Shown here in pieces: positions 46,560 through 54,015 of a stretch of DNA of 64,000 bases. The stretch's first letter is position 1, and each line of letters begins with the position of its first letter. Below the pieces are notes generated by a model. It saw only the letters and a list, made by a program, of their open reading frames with translations. It did not search any database and had not been told where the DNA came from. This DNA is from Bacteroidia bacterium. GTDB lineage: Bacteria; Bacteroidota; Bacteroidia; SpSt-205. The stretch is from contig BPGW01000005.1 of the NCBI GenBank assembly GCA_026003235.1, forward strand, positions 119,019 through 183,018, in the 5' to 3' direction. The position numbers and the translations under genes are program-made.

Positions 46560-47546
46560 ATGCCGCGTGCTGTGATTCAGGGGGTAGGGATGTATGTTCC
46601 TCCCCGCGTTGTAACCAACGAAGACCTGAAAGCGTTTTACGACACGAGCGACGAGTGGATTTACAGCCGGTCGGGTATCAAGGAGCGGCGGTGGGTGGAG
46701 GAGCCGGCCAGCACGGCCGAACTGGGGTATTTTGCCGCACAGGAAGCGCTTGCCCGCGCAGGTAAGCGTCCCGAGGACATAGACCTCATTGTTTTCGCCA
46801 CGCTAAGCCCGGATATGTACTTTCCGGGGTGTGGGGTGCTTCTGCAGCATAGGCTGGGCCTGGAGACGACACCGGCTTTGGATATTCGGCAGCAGTGTTC
46901 GGGCTTTGTGTATGGGCTCAGCATTGCGCAACAGTACATTGAGACGGGCCGGTATCGTACGGTTCTGCTGGTAGGGGCCGAAATACAGTCCACGTGGATT
47001 GACTACAGCCCTGAGGGGCGTACGGTGGGGGTGCTGTTTGGGGATGGGGCCGGGGCCGTCGTAGTAGAAGCCACCGAGGAGCTGGATCGGGGTGTTCTTT
47101 CCACGCACCTTTTCAGTCAGGGGGCCTACGCTCGCGAGCTGTGTGTGGCCGAGCCTTCCTCCGCGACTCGTCGGCATGAACTGCCCGGCAGCTATGGGAT
47201 GCGTCCCTACATGAATGGGAAGGAGGTGTTTCGGCATGCTGTGCAGCGGATGGGCCAGGCCATTCAAGCGGCTTTGTCTGCCCAGGGCTGGAACCCCGAA
47301 GAGGTCGATCTGTATGTGCTACACCAGGCTAACGTCCGTATTGTGGAGGCGGTGGCGGAATTTTTCGGCCTCCCGATGGCGAAGTTCTTCAACAACATCC
47401 ACAAATACGGCAACACCACCTCGGCCAGCATCCCCATTTGCCTGTACGAGGCCCAGGCCGAGGGAAAGCTAAAGCGGGGGGATAAAGTGATCCTGGCCGC
47501 CTTTGGTTCAGGCTTCACGTGGGGTAGTGCTGCGCTGATTTGGTAA
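46560..47546 (+). CDS. fabH: Beta-ketoacyl-ACP synthase III FabH
   Basis: A 328-residue condensing enzyme that starts fatty acid synthesis from acyl-CoA and malonyl-ACP. The nucleophile is Cys113 in DIRQQCSGFVYGL, the catalytic His is in LHQANVRI (about 254) and the Asn in HKYGNTTSASIPI (about 284); length is as expected. There is no nearby plsX, fabD or acpP. The next gene begins with a TTG that overlaps the fabH stop by 7 bases, which suggests read-through translation into it. Confidence 0.9.
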   Translation: MPRAVIQGVGMYVPPRVVTNEDLKAFYDTSDEWIYSRSGIKERRWVEEPASTAELGYFAAQEALARAGKRPEDIDLIVFATLSPDMYFPGCGVLLQHRLGLETTPALDIRQQCSGFVYGLSIAQQYIETGRYRTVLLVGAEIQSTWIDYSPEGRTVGVLFGDGAGAVVVEATEELDRGVLSTHLFSQGAYARELCVAEPSSATRRHELPGSYGMRPYMNGKEVFRHAVQRMGQAIQAALSAQGWNPEEVDLYVLHQANVRIVEAVAEFFGLPMAKFFNNIHKYGNTTSASIPICLYEAQAEGKLKRGDKVILAAFGSGFTWGSAALIW

Positions 47547-48496
47547 AAAAGCCTATTTTGCGATTTGTGGAAGAGTCGCCGCTGATCATTCGGGATGTGC
47601 AAGACCTGGAGCGCATCCTGCTGGCGCATCCAGCGTGGCGGGAACGCCTGCGCCAACTTTTGCTGAGCGAAGACCTGGCTGCTCTACCCCAGCGTTTTGA
47701 GCGCTTCGTGACGCAGGACCACGCTCGCCTCAGCCAAACCCTTGAGCAGGTAGGTGAGCTGCTCGCCAGGCTCACGGAAGAGAACATTAAGCTAGCCCAG
47801 CAGGTCAACCTTCTTACCCAGCGGATGGAGCGGGTGGAAGCGCAGATTGAGGCTTTGACCCAGCGGGTAAATGACTTGACCGAGCGGATGGAGCGGGTAG
47901 AAGCGCAGATTGAGGCTTTGACCCAGCGGGTAAATGACTTGACCGAGCGGATGGAGCGGGTGGAGGTCCACATTGCTACCCTGACCCAGCGGATGGATCG
48001 GGTAGAGTCCCAAATTGAAGCCCTTGCCCAACAGCTCAAGCGGAATACCGACGATCTGGGTGAGCTCAAGGGTATTATTCTTGAGCTGCGTCTACCTCGC
48101 AAAGCGGTGGCGCTCTACCGGGAGGAGTTCAGGGCTATTCGTGTGGTGCCTGAGGAAGAGTGGGCGCGCCTCCTGGACGAAGGCGAGGAGAAAGGTTACC
48201 TGTCAGGACCCGAAATCTCGGACCTTAGCCAGGTGGATGGGGTGATAGAGGCGTTTCGGCGCTCAGACAACCACCCTGTAGCCCTTGCTGTGGAAGTGTC
48301 AGCGGTAGGAGATCGCCAGGATGTGGAGCGCGCTGCGCGCCGGGCGAAGCTGCTGGCCCGCCTGTACAGCCGGCTCCGTGGCTATCCCGTGATAGGTATC
48401 GGAAGCGTTACAGCGCGGCAGTTTACCCAAGGCGCCCGAAAGCTGGCTTCCGTTCGTGGGGTAGTGCTCAAAACCTTCCCTATCAAGCTCCGCTGA
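47540..48496 (+). CDS. Coiled-coil protein with PD-(D/E)XK-like C-terminal domain (parental copy)
   Basis: A 318-residue protein. Residues 1-75 are a helical head, and about 75-170 are a parallel-type coiled coil made of 14-residue units (LTQRMERVEAQIEA and variants). The C-terminal domain (about 185-318) reads VALYREEFRAIRVVP, then LAVEVSAVGDRQDVERAARRA and YPVIGIGSVTARQFTQ. It resembles the uncharacterised PD-(D/E)XK-like, DUF3782-type proteins common in thermophilic and cyanobacterial genomes. Nuclease activity is unproven. The start TTG at 47540 overlaps the fabH stop. It is the left member of a tandem duplication; the second copy is fused to a lipoprotein signal. Confidence 0.65.
   Translation: MVKKPILRFVEESPLIIRDVQDLERILLAHPAWRERLRQLLLSEDLAALPQRFERFVTQDHARLSQTLEQVGELLARLTEENIKLAQQVNLLTQRMERVEAQIEALTQRVNDLTERMERVEAQIEALTQRVNDLTERMERVEVHIATLTQRMDRVESQIEALAQQLKRNTDDLGELKGIILELRLPRKAVALYREEFRAIRVVPEEEWARLLDEGEEKGYLSGPEISDLSQVDGVIEAFRRSDNHPVALAVEVSAVGDRQDVERAARRAKLLARLYSRLRGYPVIGIGSVTARQFTQGARKLASVRGVVLKTFPIKLR
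47811..48040 (+). repeat. 42-base coiled-coil repeats, first gene
   Basis: Degenerate in-frame 42-base units (14 residues, two heptads), some with a 21-base RVNDLTE insertion. Confidence 0.7.
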
Positions 48497-48529
48497 TAGG
48501 TGTAACCTCCGGCTAACCGGCGCTAATTC

Positions 48530-48537
48530 TATCTTTG
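48530..48537 (+). promoter_or_regulatory. TAnnTTTG promoter box, duplicated copy 1
   Basis: TATCTTTG, 6 bases before the ATG at 48544. It is duplicated with the surrounding spacer at 49701. Confidence 0.6.
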
Positions 48538-48543
48538 GGGAGC

Positions 48544-49668
48544 ATGCCTCAGAAGGTTGGGTGGATGCTACTCGTGCTTCTTCTGGCGGGCTGTAAAGAG
48601 AATGCTCAGCGTCCCAAACAACCGTCTACCGCACGCTTCTGCGTAGATACCATTGCGCTGGACACCGCAAATCGGCTGCCTTTTGCCAGGCTCATGGAAG
48701 AGAACATCAAGCTGGCCCAGCAGGTCAACCTTCTTACCCAGCGGATGGAACGGGTGGAAGCCCAAATTGAGGCTTTGAGCCAGCGGGTAAGTGACTTGAC
48801 CGATCGGACGGAGCGGGTGGAGGCTCAGATTGAAGCTCTGACCCAGCGGACGGAGCGGGTGGAAGCTCAGATTGAAGCTCTGACCCAGCGGATGGAGCGA
48901 GCGGAAGTCCAAATCGAGGCTTTGACCCAGCGGATGGATCGGGTGGAGGCTCAGATTGAAGCTCTGACCCAGCGGATGGAGCGGGCGGAAGTCCAAATTG
49001 AGGCTTTGACCCAGCGGACGGAGCGGGTGGAAGCTCAGATTGAAGCTCTGACCCAGCGGATGGAGCGGGCGGAAGTCCAAATTGAGGCTTTGACCCAGCG
49101 GTTAAATGACTTGACCGAGCGGATGAAGCGGGTAGGGGTCCATATTTCTAGCCTGACCCAGCGGATGGATCGGGTAGAATCCCAAATTGAAGCCCTTGCC
49201 CAACAGCTCAAGCGGAATACCGACGATCTGGGTGAGCTCAAGGGTATTATTCTTGAGCTGCGTCTACCTCGCAAAGCGGTGGCGCTCTACCGGGAGGAGT
49301 TCAGGGCTGTTCGCGTGGTGCCTGAGGAAGAGTGGGCGCGCCTCCTGGACGAAGGCGAGGAGAAAGGTTACCTGTCAGGACCCGAAATCTCGGACCTTAG
49401 CCAGGTGGATGGGGTGATAGAGGCGTTTCGGCGCTCAGACAACCACCCTGTAGTCCTTGCTGTAGAAGTGTCAGCGGTAGGAGATCGCCAGGATGTGGAG
49501 CGCGCTGCGCGCCGGGCGCAGCTGCTGGCCCGCCTGTACAGCCGGCTCCGTGGCTATCCCGTGATAGGTATCGGAAGCGTTACAGCGCGACAGTTTACCC
49601 AAGGCGCTCGGAAGCTGGCTTCAGTTCGCGGGGTAGTGCTCAAAACCTTCCCTATCAAGCTCCGCTGA
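48544..49668 (+). CDS. Chimeric lipoprotein-signal / coiled-coil / PD-(D/E)XK-like protein
   Basis: A 374-residue chimera created by the tandem duplication. Residues 1-46 are nearly the same as the start of the next gene, including the lipobox LLLAGC (Cys18 or so). From ARLMEENIKLAQQVNLL onward it matches the coiled-coil gene on the left. The coil is expanded by six 14-residue units. The C-terminal nuclease-like domain is intact and almost identical to its parent. If expressed, it would carry a predicted cytoplasmic domain into the envelope. It has its own promoter box and no stop codon inside, so it is a real open gene rather than a remnant. Confidence 0.75.
   Translation: MPQKVGWMLLVLLLAGCKENAQRPKQPSTARFCVDTIALDTANRLPFARLMEENIKLAQQVNLLTQRMERVEAQIEALSQRVSDLTDRTERVEAQIEALTQRTERVEAQIEALTQRMERAEVQIEALTQRMDRVEAQIEALTQRMERAEVQIEALTQRTERVEAQIEALTQRMERAEVQIEALTQRLNDLTERMKRVGVHISSLTQRMDRVESQIEALAQQLKRNTDDLGELKGIILELRLPRKAVALYREEFRAVRVVPEEEWARLLDEGEEKGYLSGPEISDLSQVDGVIEAFRRSDNHPVVLAVEVSAVGDRQDVERAARRAQLLARLYSRLRGYPVIGIGSVTARQFTQGARKLASVRGVVLKTFPIKLR
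48735..49210 (+). repeat. 42-base coiled-coil repeats, expanded in chimeric gene
   Basis: About ten in-frame 42-base units in three recurring versions (QRMERVEAQIEA, QRTERVEAQIEA, QRMERAEVQIEA), six more than in the parent. The pattern looks like duplication of multi-unit blocks. Confidence 0.75.
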
Positions 49669-49700
49669 CAGGTGTAACCTTCGGCTAACCGGCGCTATCC

Positions 49701-49708
49701 TATCTTTG
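49701..49708 (+). promoter_or_regulatory. TAnnTTTG promoter box, duplicated copy 2
   Basis: TATCTTTG, 6 bases before the ATG at 49715. The spacer matches the one at 48497-48543. Confidence 0.6.
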
Positions 49709-49714
49709 GGGAGC

Positions 49715-51127
49715 ATGCCTCAGAGGGTTGGGTGGATGCTGCTCGTGCTTCTTCTGGCGGGCTGTAAAAAGGATGCCCCGCGTCCTAAACAACCGCCTAT
49801 CGCGCGCTTCTTCGTAGACACCATTGCGCTGGACACCGCGAATCGGCTTCCTTCGCGGTTTGTACTAAGGTGGTATGGAGACGACCCAGATGGGTGCATC
49901 GTGGGATACGAGCTGCGGGTGAACGGCGGAGCCTGGGCTTTCACGACGGCGCAGGAAAGCACCTTCGTGGTGCCCTTTGCGCCTGGCGAGGTGTACAAGG
50001 ACCTTGTTTTTGAGCTGCGTGCTGTGGATAACGACGGCCTTCGCAGCGAGCCACCGGCGCGTCTGCGCGTGCCCCTGCGCAACTCTCCGCCGCTGTGCCG
50101 CCTGGATCCCCAAGCGTTACCGCCCGATACAACCTTGCCGGCTATAACGCTCTTTTTGCGGGCCACCGATCCAGATGGCGATGAAACCGTGGAAAGCCTG
50201 TATGTGCGCATAGGACCTTCTTCGCCGTGGATAGCGCTGGAGCCTCGTCACACCCTCCTGACCTTGGTTCCGGAAGACCCGACTGCTTCTTCGGCCACCC
50301 TTCTGTATAGCGACACGCGGCTCGTGCCGATTTTACGGGTGCCTATTCCTCTGCCTCTGAATGATACGGTGCGGTTCTATGTGCGAGCGAAAGATCAGGG
50401 GGGGCTTTTCTCGGAGCCTGACAGCACGCGGCCTATCTACCTACGCCGTAAGACGGGAGACTGGCTGGTGATGGATAGCTGGAGCGATGAGACGGCATAC
50501 GGGACGCTGGCGCCGGATATGGCGGCGGCTTGGGGCAGCTACGACTACTGGAATCTACGCAATCCCGCTCAAAGACCCCCTATAAGGGTTCCGACTTGGC
50601 TCCACATCTGGCGTTTGTACCCCCGGGTATGCTGGATAGGCAATGTGACGGCCTTGCCTGAGCTGGAAGCGTCCGAAGCGCTCATTGAAAGCTACCTTGT
50701 GGGTGGGGGGCGATTGTTCCTCAACTTTCCCTTGCCCAGCAGTATAGAGGCGCGTTCGCCGGTGTTTCGGTTTGGCCCCATGGATAGTATCGCTGCCAGT
50801 CCTCAGAATGGCGTGCTGGCTCCAAGCTCTCCTGTCAGCAGCCAAGTAAGCGGGTTCCCAGACTTAGCCAATGGGCTTCCCTACTTCTTGAGCGGGGTGA
50901 ATCCTCCTTTTCCGAAGGGTACAGCCCAAGTCTTGTACACGATGCCAAACCTCCTCCAGGGCAATGGGCAGCCATGGCCGGCTTCGGGCAGTCGGGTGGC
51001 GGCTGCTGCTTTCCCAGCCGCTTCCCCAGGCCGCTATACGCAGGTCTTCTTCATCCTGCCCCTTCACCAGCTTAGTGGAGATCGGGTGGCTTTCCTACAA
51101 GCTCTCCAAACAGCGCTTCAGCCATGA
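49715..51127 (+). CDS. Lipoprotein with fibronectin/Ig-like domains (unknown)
   Basis: A 470-residue lipoprotein. The signal MPQRVGWMLLVLLLAGC has a clear lipobox with Cys17. Two beta-sandwich domains follow: the first, with RFVLRWYGDDPDGCIVGYELRV, at about 45-130, and a similar one with FLRATDPDGDETVESLYVRI at about 145-240. The C-terminal half (from DWLVMDSWSDETAYG) has no recognised domain, but its SYLVGGGRLFLNFP resembles GldG-like or type-1-glutamine-amidotransferase-like segments in secreted proteins. It overlaps the TonB-dependent receptor start by 4 bases, so the two probably act together at the outer membrane. Confidence 0.65.
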   Translation: MPQRVGWMLLVLLLAGCKKDAPRPKQPPIARFFVDTIALDTANRLPSRFVLRWYGDDPDGCIVGYELRVNGGAWAFTTAQESTFVVPFAPGEVYKDLVFELRAVDNDGLRSEPPARLRVPLRNSPPLCRLDPQALPPDTTLPAITLFLRATDPDGDETVESLYVRIGPSSPWIALEPRHTLLTLVPEDPTASSATLLYSDTRLVPILRVPIPLPLNDTVRFYVRAKDQGGLFSEPDSTRPIYLRRKTGDWLVMDSWSDETAYGTLAPDMAAAWGSYDYWNLRNPAQRPPIRVPTWLHIWRLYPRVCWIGNVTALPELEASEALIESYLVGGGRLFLNFPLPSSIEARSPVFRFGPMDSIAASPQNGVLAPSSPVSSQVSGFPDLANGLPYFLSGVNPPFPKGTAQVLYTMPNLLQGNGQPWPASGSRVAAAAFPAASPGRYTQVFFILPLHQLSGDRVAFLQALQTALQP

Positions 51128-54015
51128 ATCGTTTCTGGATAGCTTGGGTCTCGTTGGCGATTCTGTGGGCTCAGAAGGGTAAAATCAGCGGCCTCGTCAA
51201 AGACAAGACCACGGGCGAGCCGCTTGTGGGAGCTACGGTAGCGCTCGTAGGCACCTACAAAGGGGGCTACACGGACGAAAATGGACGCTTCGATCTGGGC
51301 GAAATCTCCCCTGGCACCTACACGCTACGGGTTTCGTATGTCGGCTACAACGAACTGCTCCTTCCTAACCTCACCCTCAAGCCTGGTCAGACCCTGACGC
51401 TCACGGTGCCGCTCTCGCCGGTAGGAACCTCCTTGCAGACGGTGGAAATTATCGGGGATCGCCCGCTGGTGAACCTGGAATCGGGCAAGTCAGACCTTCG
51501 TGTGTCGGGTGATCAAATAAGCCAGACCACGGCGGTGGATGTGCAGAGTATGGTTTCCCTCATGCCGGGCGTGGCGCAAACGCTGGACGGCCTGCAGATA
51601 CGCGGGGGGCGCGTGTATGAGACCCAGTATGTCGTGGAAGGCGTCAACGCTCAGGACCCGCTCGCAGGTACGGGTTTCGGGGTGGAGATTTCGCAGGTGG
51701 CCATAGAAGAGCTGGAGGTAATCACCGGGGGGATGGATGCAGAGTACGGCGATGGCACTTCAGGGGTGGTGGCGGTCCGGCTCAAAGAAGGAGGTTCAAA
51801 GTGGCGCCTCTCAGGCCGGTATATGCGGGACGGGCTCGGTGGGGCCGTGCCTGCCTGGGGATGGAATACGGATATCTTCAACCTCGCGGCAGGCGGCCCC
51901 TTGTACAAGGACTCCACCGGCAAACCCCGCTTGTCTTATTTCGGGGCCTTTGACTTGCGGCTCACAGACGAATACTTCGGTGTGCGGGCCAGCCAGCTTC
52001 GCAGCAGCCTCCTTGAGGAAAGCGCCGGCCGCGACCCTTTCTACCGGCTGGTGACTCGCCCACTCGGCTCGCCTTCCAAAAGCGAATTCTTCGCCCCTCG
52101 CCAGGACAACAAATGGTCCTTTACCTCAAAGCTCGCCTATTACCTGGATGCCCGCACGCGCCTATCCCTTTCCGTCCAGCAGAGCCTGGCTATCAACCAA
52201 AATACTCGTTCCCTCCAAATCATCGGCAGTGACCAGATCATGGTGCCCGGTTTTCAGTATCTTTTTGCCCTTCAGCCCGATAACGCCAACACCTACACGC
52301 ACCGCTCCAACCTCACGGTGTTGAAGCTCAACCGCATCTTGAGCAAAGTCTGGACGGGCGAACTCACGGTGGGGCGGCTCTTCGTGAACCTGCGCGCCGA
52401 CGCCAACGGGCGGCCCTTCCGCGATTCGGTCGTACGGCAGATCTACGATCCCGCTTCTATCGTGACGGATCCGGTTTCGGTGTATAACCCTGGCGATAGC
52501 ATCGTGTACGTAAATCCCGGTCCTGGCCTCTACAACAATGGGGGAATCGCCACCTTATGGCACGATCACGTGGCCGAGGAGTACACCTTCAAGGCGAAAT
52601 TCACCTACCAACCGCGCAGCGTGGCGCACTTCTGGATTGGGGGGTGGGAGCACCGGGAGCAGTTTTACCAATGGATAGATGTGACCCGGCCGTGGGTAGG
52701 GGCGCCGATCCGGCTGGATAACGGTCAAGTGTACGCTTCCAACCGCATTGGCAGCAGCAACGACATTTGGCGGGTACGACCTGCTACCGGGGGGTTTTTC
52801 TTGGAAGACCGCATTCGCTACAAGGGCATCGTAGCCAGTCTGGGCGCGCGGCTCATGTACTGGGCGCCGGGCCGCTTCGTGGATCAGGCCGTAAAGAACC
52901 CCCAAGCCCCCGTGCTGGAATCGGTGCGCGAAGCGTACCTCAAACAGACGATCCCCTTCCTGGGGCGCCGCTTCAAGGTAAGGTTCCTGCCCCGCCTAAG
53001 GGTGTCCTTTCCAGTGACCGACAACCATGTGCTGTTCTTCAACTATGCGCATTCCACGCGGCTGCCCCATCCCCGCTTCGTGTATGCGGGGCTGGACCCC
53101 GTCTATCAGAATCGTTCCTTCCTCGCTAACCTCGGCAACCCCAACCTCAACCCCGAAGTCAATGTAGGCTACGAAATCGGCCTGAAGTCCAACTTGGGTA
53201 AAGGATGGGCCCTCCAGGTGAGCGCCTTCTACAACGACAAGTTTGACTTTATCGTGAATCGGGTCATCAGCATTCGGGACTGGACGGGGCGCTTTACGGA
53301 ACGGGCTTTTGCGGTGAACCTGGACTATGCGCGGGTGCGCGGGCTGGATGTGTTTCTCCAGCGGCAAGTGGGCACCTGGCTAAGGCTCGCCGGCGCCGTC
53401 ACCTACCAGGTCGCCACCGGCAAGTCCAACTCGGCCCTGGAGTCTTTGCTGCAGATTCGCCAAACGGGCCGCAACGACGCTGCTGAGGAGTTCTTTTTAG
53501 CCTGGGATCGACCTTGGGATATCAAGCTGTGGGGCATTTTGCAGAGTCCCCCGGCTTGGACTTCACCGTATTGGCGGGGATGGACGGCTTTTGTTTCCTT
53601 CACCTACAAGTCAGGCCTGCGTTACACCCCGTATGTGCTTGTGGGGCAGGATGACTTCTCCGGGCGGCCCATCTACGAAATGCAGCCTGGCCCTTCGAAT
53701 ACTGCGATTGGCAGCCCTTGGCGGTGGGTGGACCTGCGCCTCACACGGAGCTTTTGGGGAGGCCGGCTCTCCGTCTTTGTTGAAGGGCGCAATATCTTTA
53801 GCTGGAAAAATGCGGCTATCATCAACCCTGTTACCGGAAGCGCTTACGAATACCCCGATGATGTGCCTTTTTCCTGGCGAGACCCCAAGTATCCCAATCC
53901 TCTGGACAGTGGCCCCCCTCCCACGAATCCAGCCCGCTATTTGCCTCCTCGGCAGGTCTTTGTGGGGCTCAACTGGTCGTTCAGTAAGGAGCCTGCTTCT
54001 GCCCAGAAGCCCTAA
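51124..54015 (+). CDS. TonB-dependent receptor with carboxypeptidase-regulatory N-terminal domain
   Basis: A 963-residue outer-membrane receptor. A short signal peptide (to about ILWAQ) is followed by the CarboxypepD_reg-like domain GLVKDKTTGEPLVGATVALVG through TLRVSYVGYNE (about 20-85). The plug has VQSMVSLMPGVAQTLDGLQIRG and EELEVITGGMDAEYGDG (about 140-215). The rest is a long barrel with many aromatic strands, ending PPRQVFVGLNWSFSKEPASAQKP; the final strand is followed by an 8-9 residue tail. No SusD-like partner is present. The coupled upstream lipoprotein may fill that place. The ligand is unknown. Its end overlaps recG by 4 bases. Confidence 0.85.
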   Translation: MNRFWIAWVSLAILWAQKGKISGLVKDKTTGEPLVGATVALVGTYKGGYTDENGRFDLGEISPGTYTLRVSYVGYNELLLPNLTLKPGQTLTLTVPLSPVGTSLQTVEIIGDRPLVNLESGKSDLRVSGDQISQTTAVDVQSMVSLMPGVAQTLDGLQIRGGRVYETQYVVEGVNAQDPLAGTGFGVEISQVAIEELEVITGGMDAEYGDGTSGVVAVRLKEGGSKWRLSGRYMRDGLGGAVPAWGWNTDIFNLAAGGPLYKDSTGKPRLSYFGAFDLRLTDEYFGVRASQLRSSLLEESAGRDPFYRLVTRPLGSPSKSEFFAPRQDNKWSFTSKLAYYLDARTRLSLSVQQSLAINQNTRSLQIIGSDQIMVPGFQYLFALQPDNANTYTHRSNLTVLKLNRILSKVWTGELTVGRLFVNLRADANGRPFRDSVVRQIYDPASIVTDPVSVYNPGDSIVYVNPGPGLYNNGGIATLWHDHVAEEYTFKAKFTYQPRSVAHFWIGGWEHREQFYQWIDVTRPWVGAPIRLDNGQVYASNRIGSSNDIWRVRPATGGFFLEDRIRYKGIVASLGARLMYWAPGRFVDQAVKNPQAPVLESVREAYLKQTIPFLGRRFKVRFLPRLRVSFPVTDNHVLFFNYAHSTRLPHPRFVYAGLDPVYQNRSFLANLGNPNLNPEVNVGYEIGLKSNLGKGWALQVSAFYNDKFDFIVNRVISIRDWTGRFTERAFAVNLDYARVRGLDVFLQRQVGTWLRLAGAVTYQVATGKSNSALESLLQIRQTGRNDAAEEFFLAWDRPWDIKLWGILQSPPAWTSPYWRGWTAFVSFTYKSGLRYTPYVLVGQDDFSGRPIYEMQPGPSNTAIGSPWRWVDLRLTRSFWGGRLSVFVEGRNIFSWKNAAIINPVTGSAYEYPDDVPFSWRDPKYPNPLDSGPPPTNPARYLPPRQVFVGLNWSFSKEPASAQKP

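Follow-up and report, generated by a model that had tools for sequence, protein, structure and literature searches.

The locus described here raises the question of how a bacterial gene came to begin like its downstream neighbor and to end like its upstream neighbor. It lies in a 64,000-nucleotide (nt) stretch of Bacteroidia bacterium DNA (GCA_026003235.1, contig BPGW01000005.1, positions 119,019 to 183,018), which we call the window. Three genes follow each other on its forward strand: a gene A, a chimera with the start of B and the end of A, and a gene B. We consider it probable that a tandem duplication, likely through illegitimate recombination, created the chimera in frame, that the chimera is likely transcribed from a copied promoter box of B, and that its product is a predicted lipoprotein that combines a coiled coil with a PD-(D/E)XK-fold domain. 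This explanation builds on observations and on a predicted fold. The observed parts are the structure of the duplication, a join in frame, a reading frame without interruption, the letters of the signal peptide and lipobox, and the conserved -7 box.

Gene A (47567..48496) encodes 309 residues from a GTG start, or 318 from an alternative TTG start at 47540; its predicted parts are a helical N-terminus and a coiled coil, followed by a PD-(D/E)XK-fold domain at the C-terminus. Gene B (49715..51127) encodes 470 residues and is a lipoprotein by its lipobox. The chimeric gene (48544..49668, 374 residues) consists of B residues 1-46, a codon that spans the join and A residues 67-309, with the junction peptide DTANRLPFARLMEEN. 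Both parent genes are whole, and each contains one end of the duplication, at 47763 inside A and at 49853 inside B. Copy 1 of the duplicated unit (47763..48682) includes the 3' part of A, the spacer and the 5' part of B; copy 2 (48683..49853) owes its extra length to an expansion of coiled-coil repeats.

The similarity between the copies is well above chance. A repeat finder reported two families that agree with the duplication: D3 (300 nt, 95% identity, 47877-48176 and 49049-49348) and D4 (157 nt, 90% identity, 48526-48682 and 49697-49853). In the alignment of the copies, A 48026-48496 and chimera 49198-49668 are identical at 461/471 positions, the two coil ends at 108/116 and 92/100, the spacer at 26/28, and the promoter plus lipoprotein start at 141/156. 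A base-by-base comparison at the join (48682..48683) showed B sequence through 48682 and A sequence from 48683 on, with no base common to both parents and no visible microhomology. The join preserves the reading frame, which is uninterrupted from the ATG at 48544 to the stop at 49668. An earlier sequence-only reading of this DNA had claimed that a tandem duplication had its breakpoints within the two genes, that the spacer was duplicated, and that the chimera was stop-free with about 46 residues of B. All of this was borne out, including the first 46 codons that match the start of B, and its coordinates for the copies (47765-48682 and 48685-49853) were correct to within two bases.

The duplication is therefore confirmed. 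Because the order A, B-start/A-end, B is the one expected from a tandem duplication with ends in A and B, such an event is well supported as the source of the chimera and would have left the frame intact. The join itself likely formed without homology, by illegitimate recombination. Unequal crossing over by homology in the coiled-coil repeats can be dismissed, since the join sits outside these repeats.

The copied DNA also holds a candidate promoter. TATCTTTG, which we take to fit the TAnnTTTG -7 box of Bacteroidota, occurs before the chimera (48530..48537) and before B (49701..49708), and in both cases it begins 14 nt upstream of the ATG. A TAnnTTTG box is found upstream of B in 6/6 congeneric loci. 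In the window, such a box lies between -60 and +45 relative to the first start codon in 11 of the 37 long open reading frames (chimera and B included), compared with about 1.2 expected. Nine of these boxes are located 5-21 nt upstream and two are 10 and 28 nt inside the frame; the upstream positions suggest that 5' leaders are very short or absent in this organism. By eye, the congeneric B loci have a TTTAC-like element further upstream, which was not found before the chimera or B in the window. The proposed duplication of the promoter thus stands as far as the box is concerned, which is there and is conserved upstream of B among the congeners, while a clear upstream element could not be seen by eye. 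It is likely that the copied B box drives transcription of the chimera.

The first codons of the chimera (48544..48594) specify a lipoprotein-type signal peptide, MPQKVGWMLLVLLLAGC. As had been claimed, the lipobox LAGC is present; the short signal peptide and the lipobox cysteine were recognized by pattern match. If the protein is made and exported, it would likely bring a domain that is normally internal to the cell envelope, where a role is possible. We compared the chimera with its homologs in a large protein set (the best 120 of 124 matches, after scoring the 7996 candidates that share most words). The chimera is alone among these 120 in having a lipobox in the first 40 residues. The full-length-looking homologs start with a conserved helical stretch, which the chimera lacks. 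Among the frames read by eye, none of the A-family paralogs in the same genome had a start with a lipobox. Import of a ready-made lipoprotein fusion was rejected, since the other 119 listed homologs have no lipobox. A search with chimera residues 1-60 found only the chimera among 17 candidates; this is a weak negative, as the search missed P0121, which shares VDTIALDTANRLP.

The C-terminal domain of the chimera (49198..49668) has 98% DNA identity to A and retains D289, E308, S310 and D317. The alpha/beta core of the PD-(D/E)XK superfamily is present in the predicted models and in the fold comparison of A's model; the fold search used the model of A, and the chimera was predicted as a model only. 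These results support the earlier suggestion of a nuclease-like fold. An active nuclease is not supported. In an alignment of 38 rows the motif D and E occur in all 38, as does a serine at the position of the motif lysine. In a larger alignment of 51 rows, E is found in 51 and the serine in 50; the sole lysine belongs to P0119. The active-site pattern D ... (D/E)-x-K of PD-(D/E)XK nucleases is not present. Searched alone, the domain matched no Pfam family above the cut-off and gave only weak sequence matches in PDB (best E 0.0083). EndoMS has the usual catalytic lysine. The C-terminal domain of EndoMS/NucS (PDB 2vld, 5gke) shares 12-15% identity with the domain and has no coiled coil in common with these proteins. 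A role in a defense system was considered and set aside: the PADLOC (best 25 per protein), Pfam and NCBIfam matches listed for A and the chimera all overlap the coiled coil or lie within it and are uninformative.

There is also a likeness to the DUF3782 proteins. According to PMC4786415, these have a coiled-coil stalk preceding a PD-(D/E)XK domain, and stalked bacterial members are without nonads; A and the chimera share this order of stalk and domain. The likeness has limits. The DUF3782 profile (PF12644) had no match at E 0.001 in the own genome of the locus; in the 14 control genomes it gave signals in two and exceeded the cut-off in one. In the chimera, moreover, the lipoprotein-type signal replaces the N-terminal helical part. 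P0119 is the only one of the 120 listed homologs that carries PF12644 and the DUF3782 name. Since P0119 retains the motif lysine whereas 50/51 aligned members have serine, the A family possibly lost its classical active site once it had split from the DUF3782 proteins.

Next we considered the age of the duplication, which the sequence-only reading had called recent. This is only partly right and does not hold as stated, because the synonymous divergence (dS) is about 0.2 in the least similar parts, all outside the C-terminal domain. The C-terminal domain differs at 10/471 sites, compared with 15/156 in the promoter and lipoprotein start (Fisher P 0.00015) and 16/216 in the coil ends (P 0.0018). 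Estimates of dS, which are rough given the short stretches, are about 0.23 for the lipoprotein part, 0.22 for the coil start, 0.13 for the coil end and 0.058 for the C-terminal domain; a comparison of this domain with the lipoprotein part plus coil start gives P 0.008, or 0.010 once the coil end is included. The most economical interpretation is an event whose age fits a dS of about 0.2, after which the C-terminal half would have been homogenized with A by gene conversion. In the lipoprotein part, the outgroups P0121 and P0122 side with B at all six polarizable amino-acid differences out of seven (at one of the six the residue is present in P0122 only), which indicates that the chimera's copy is the changed one; most of its changes fall in the linker.

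The coiled coil also differs between the copies. A has a 63-nt repeat in 2.4 copies, while the chimera has a 42-nt (14-residue) repeat in 7.3 copies (48797..49101), and the coil was presumably expanded by 14-residue units. By eye, lengths within look-alike groups of the A family are often apart by multiples of 7 residues, and for this reason gain and loss of coil units looks usual in the family. A further caveat on the dS estimates is that recombination with other repeat units may have affected parts of the coil.

Several points weigh against the explanation preferred here. No clear -33 element was recognized by eye before the chimera. The constraint on the chimera is marginal (P 0.048), and transition bias, which the count ignores, would weaken it. 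The linker (codons 18-46) has 6 codons with an amino-acid change and 6 silent ones, as expected of relaxed sequence. Furthermore, the chimera is a single assembled sequence on a single contig (P0001) of a draft genome with 11 contigs that is 82% complete. That it was found only once, in an incomplete draft, could mean that the chimera is an artefact of assembly or strain mixing. P0004 could point the same way; it is a near-identical A of 288 residues on a 33,287-base contig, has one coiled-coil unit fewer and combines features of A and of the chimera. The own genome lacks such a third copy, so P0004 evidently belongs to a different genome that is closely related. We nevertheless regard an artefact as very improbable: the copies are about 10% apart in signal and linker and differ in repeat number, the join sequence is unique, and strain mixing would not create a new junction between B and A.

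P0004 bears on the history of the locus in another way. In the C-terminal domain, A and chimera differ at three amino acids, and P0004, which has the N-terminus of A, carries the chimera residue at 3/3 of them. Strains of the P0004 type could have lost the chimera through recombination between the C-terminal parts of A and chimera, in which case the duplication would be an unstable polymorphism and not a novelty of this strain. At the I/V site, P0034, which is more distant, has the residue of A, and the valine therefore looks derived and shared; of the other two sites, P0034 agrees with the chimera at one and ends before the other. This history rests on three sites, however, two of which can be explained by a P0004-like ancestor and changes in the window's A. 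Either the window's A has changed or P0004 is a recombinant of both copies, and we think a loss of the chimera the less likely course, although one to be kept in mind.

The chimera could also be a new gene kept by selection, with a product that is anchored in the envelope and has a coiled coil and a PD-(D/E)XK fold. The frame is intact and was preserved through the repeat changes. In neutral simulations (2000 runs each, started from the present-day chimera) at 0.11 mutations per site, 1.6% of the runs kept the whole frame stop-free and 9.5% the region upstream of the C-terminal domain; the latter figure is fairer, since conversion resets the C-terminal half. At 0.05 per site these values rise to 15% and 30%, which counts against this reading. 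Changed codons are fewer in the 17-residue signal peptide (2/17, one with an amino-acid change and one silent) than in the linker (12/29; Fisher P 0.049). The C-terminal domain of 157 residues has no chimera-specific amino-acid change when P0004 serves as the comparison, but its low synonymous divergence means that gene conversion can explain this conservation. Taken together, the copies differ by 22 synonymous and 18 nonsynonymous changes; the latter are too few for two neutral copies (P 0.00007), which constraint on A alone can explain. When one copy is taken as neutral and the other as frozen, P is 0.048 overall, 0.060 for the A part and 0.33 for the lipoprotein part. This is a hint of constraint on the chimera and not proof. 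The conserved N-terminal region of the family is also gone from the chimera, and no other listed homolog has its lipobox. We consider a selected new gene unlikely. The likeliest view from the sequence is that the tandem duplication left a gene at its join point which is probably expressed and functionally optional; our best guess is that the cell can do without it, either as a by-product not yet lost or as a weakly constrained gene.

The parent genes have different distributions. B, which matches no Pfam family at E 0.1, was found in 6/9 genomes searched from the same genus, with 63-70% identity. A TonB-dependent receptor follows B in the window and in 6/6 congeneric loci; B and the receptor (49715-54015) form a conserved pair and probably cooperate. 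None of the six congeneric loci has a relative of A or of KAS III in the flank read. A contig scan with P0122 found four B loci, none with A within the available stretch; these loci (L033-L036, from 'Bacteroidia bacterium' metagenome-assembled genomes) appear to duplicate four of the six congeneric loci. The A family, in contrast, is patchy, with matches in 3/12 genomes of the GTDB family, own genome included; one of the three, genome G005, matches across the coil alone. The own genome (G000) has seven loci: A, the chimera, three further intact members (C6:97908, C4:122003 and C4:37359) and two broken ones. One of the broken members lies in three pieces and three frames (L004 and L008, C6:23348-24399), and the other has shifted frames and a stop (L011 and L012, C1:317102-317773); longer look-alikes are known elsewhere (P0030, P0011). 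There are seven loci here and yet no match in 8/10 congeners, and the named matches elsewhere, among those listed, are mostly from Thermomicrobium and other thermophile-type bacteria. These two facts hint at horizontal transfer of the A family.

Bacterial tandem duplications in which an upstream coding part acquires the promoter of a downstream gene have been described (PMC11111574, with reference to Anderson and Roth 1978 and to the citrate case of E. coli). As in the promoter capture treated in that paper, homology is not required and the promoter of the downstream gene comes to lie before the upstream coding part. Unlike in those cases, the join here falls within both coding sequences and includes a lipoprotein-type signal, and the present case is natural rather than selected in the laboratory. 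Our look at the literature on chimeric genes from duplication turned up no identical case among the papers listed, although we do not claim that none is in print. Chimeras of such an origin are a known kind; the unusual part is the lipoprotein-type signal carried along in frame. The locus is thus a natural case in which a single rearrangement gave a promoter box, a start codon, an export signal and a lipid anchor site to an existing domain, with parents and product still adjoining. Should the chimera be expressed, it would offer a bacterial example of protein relocation that can be dated. Otherwise, it would show that intact-looking chimeric genes can persist, partly by gene conversion, and it would caution that an open frame does not equal function.
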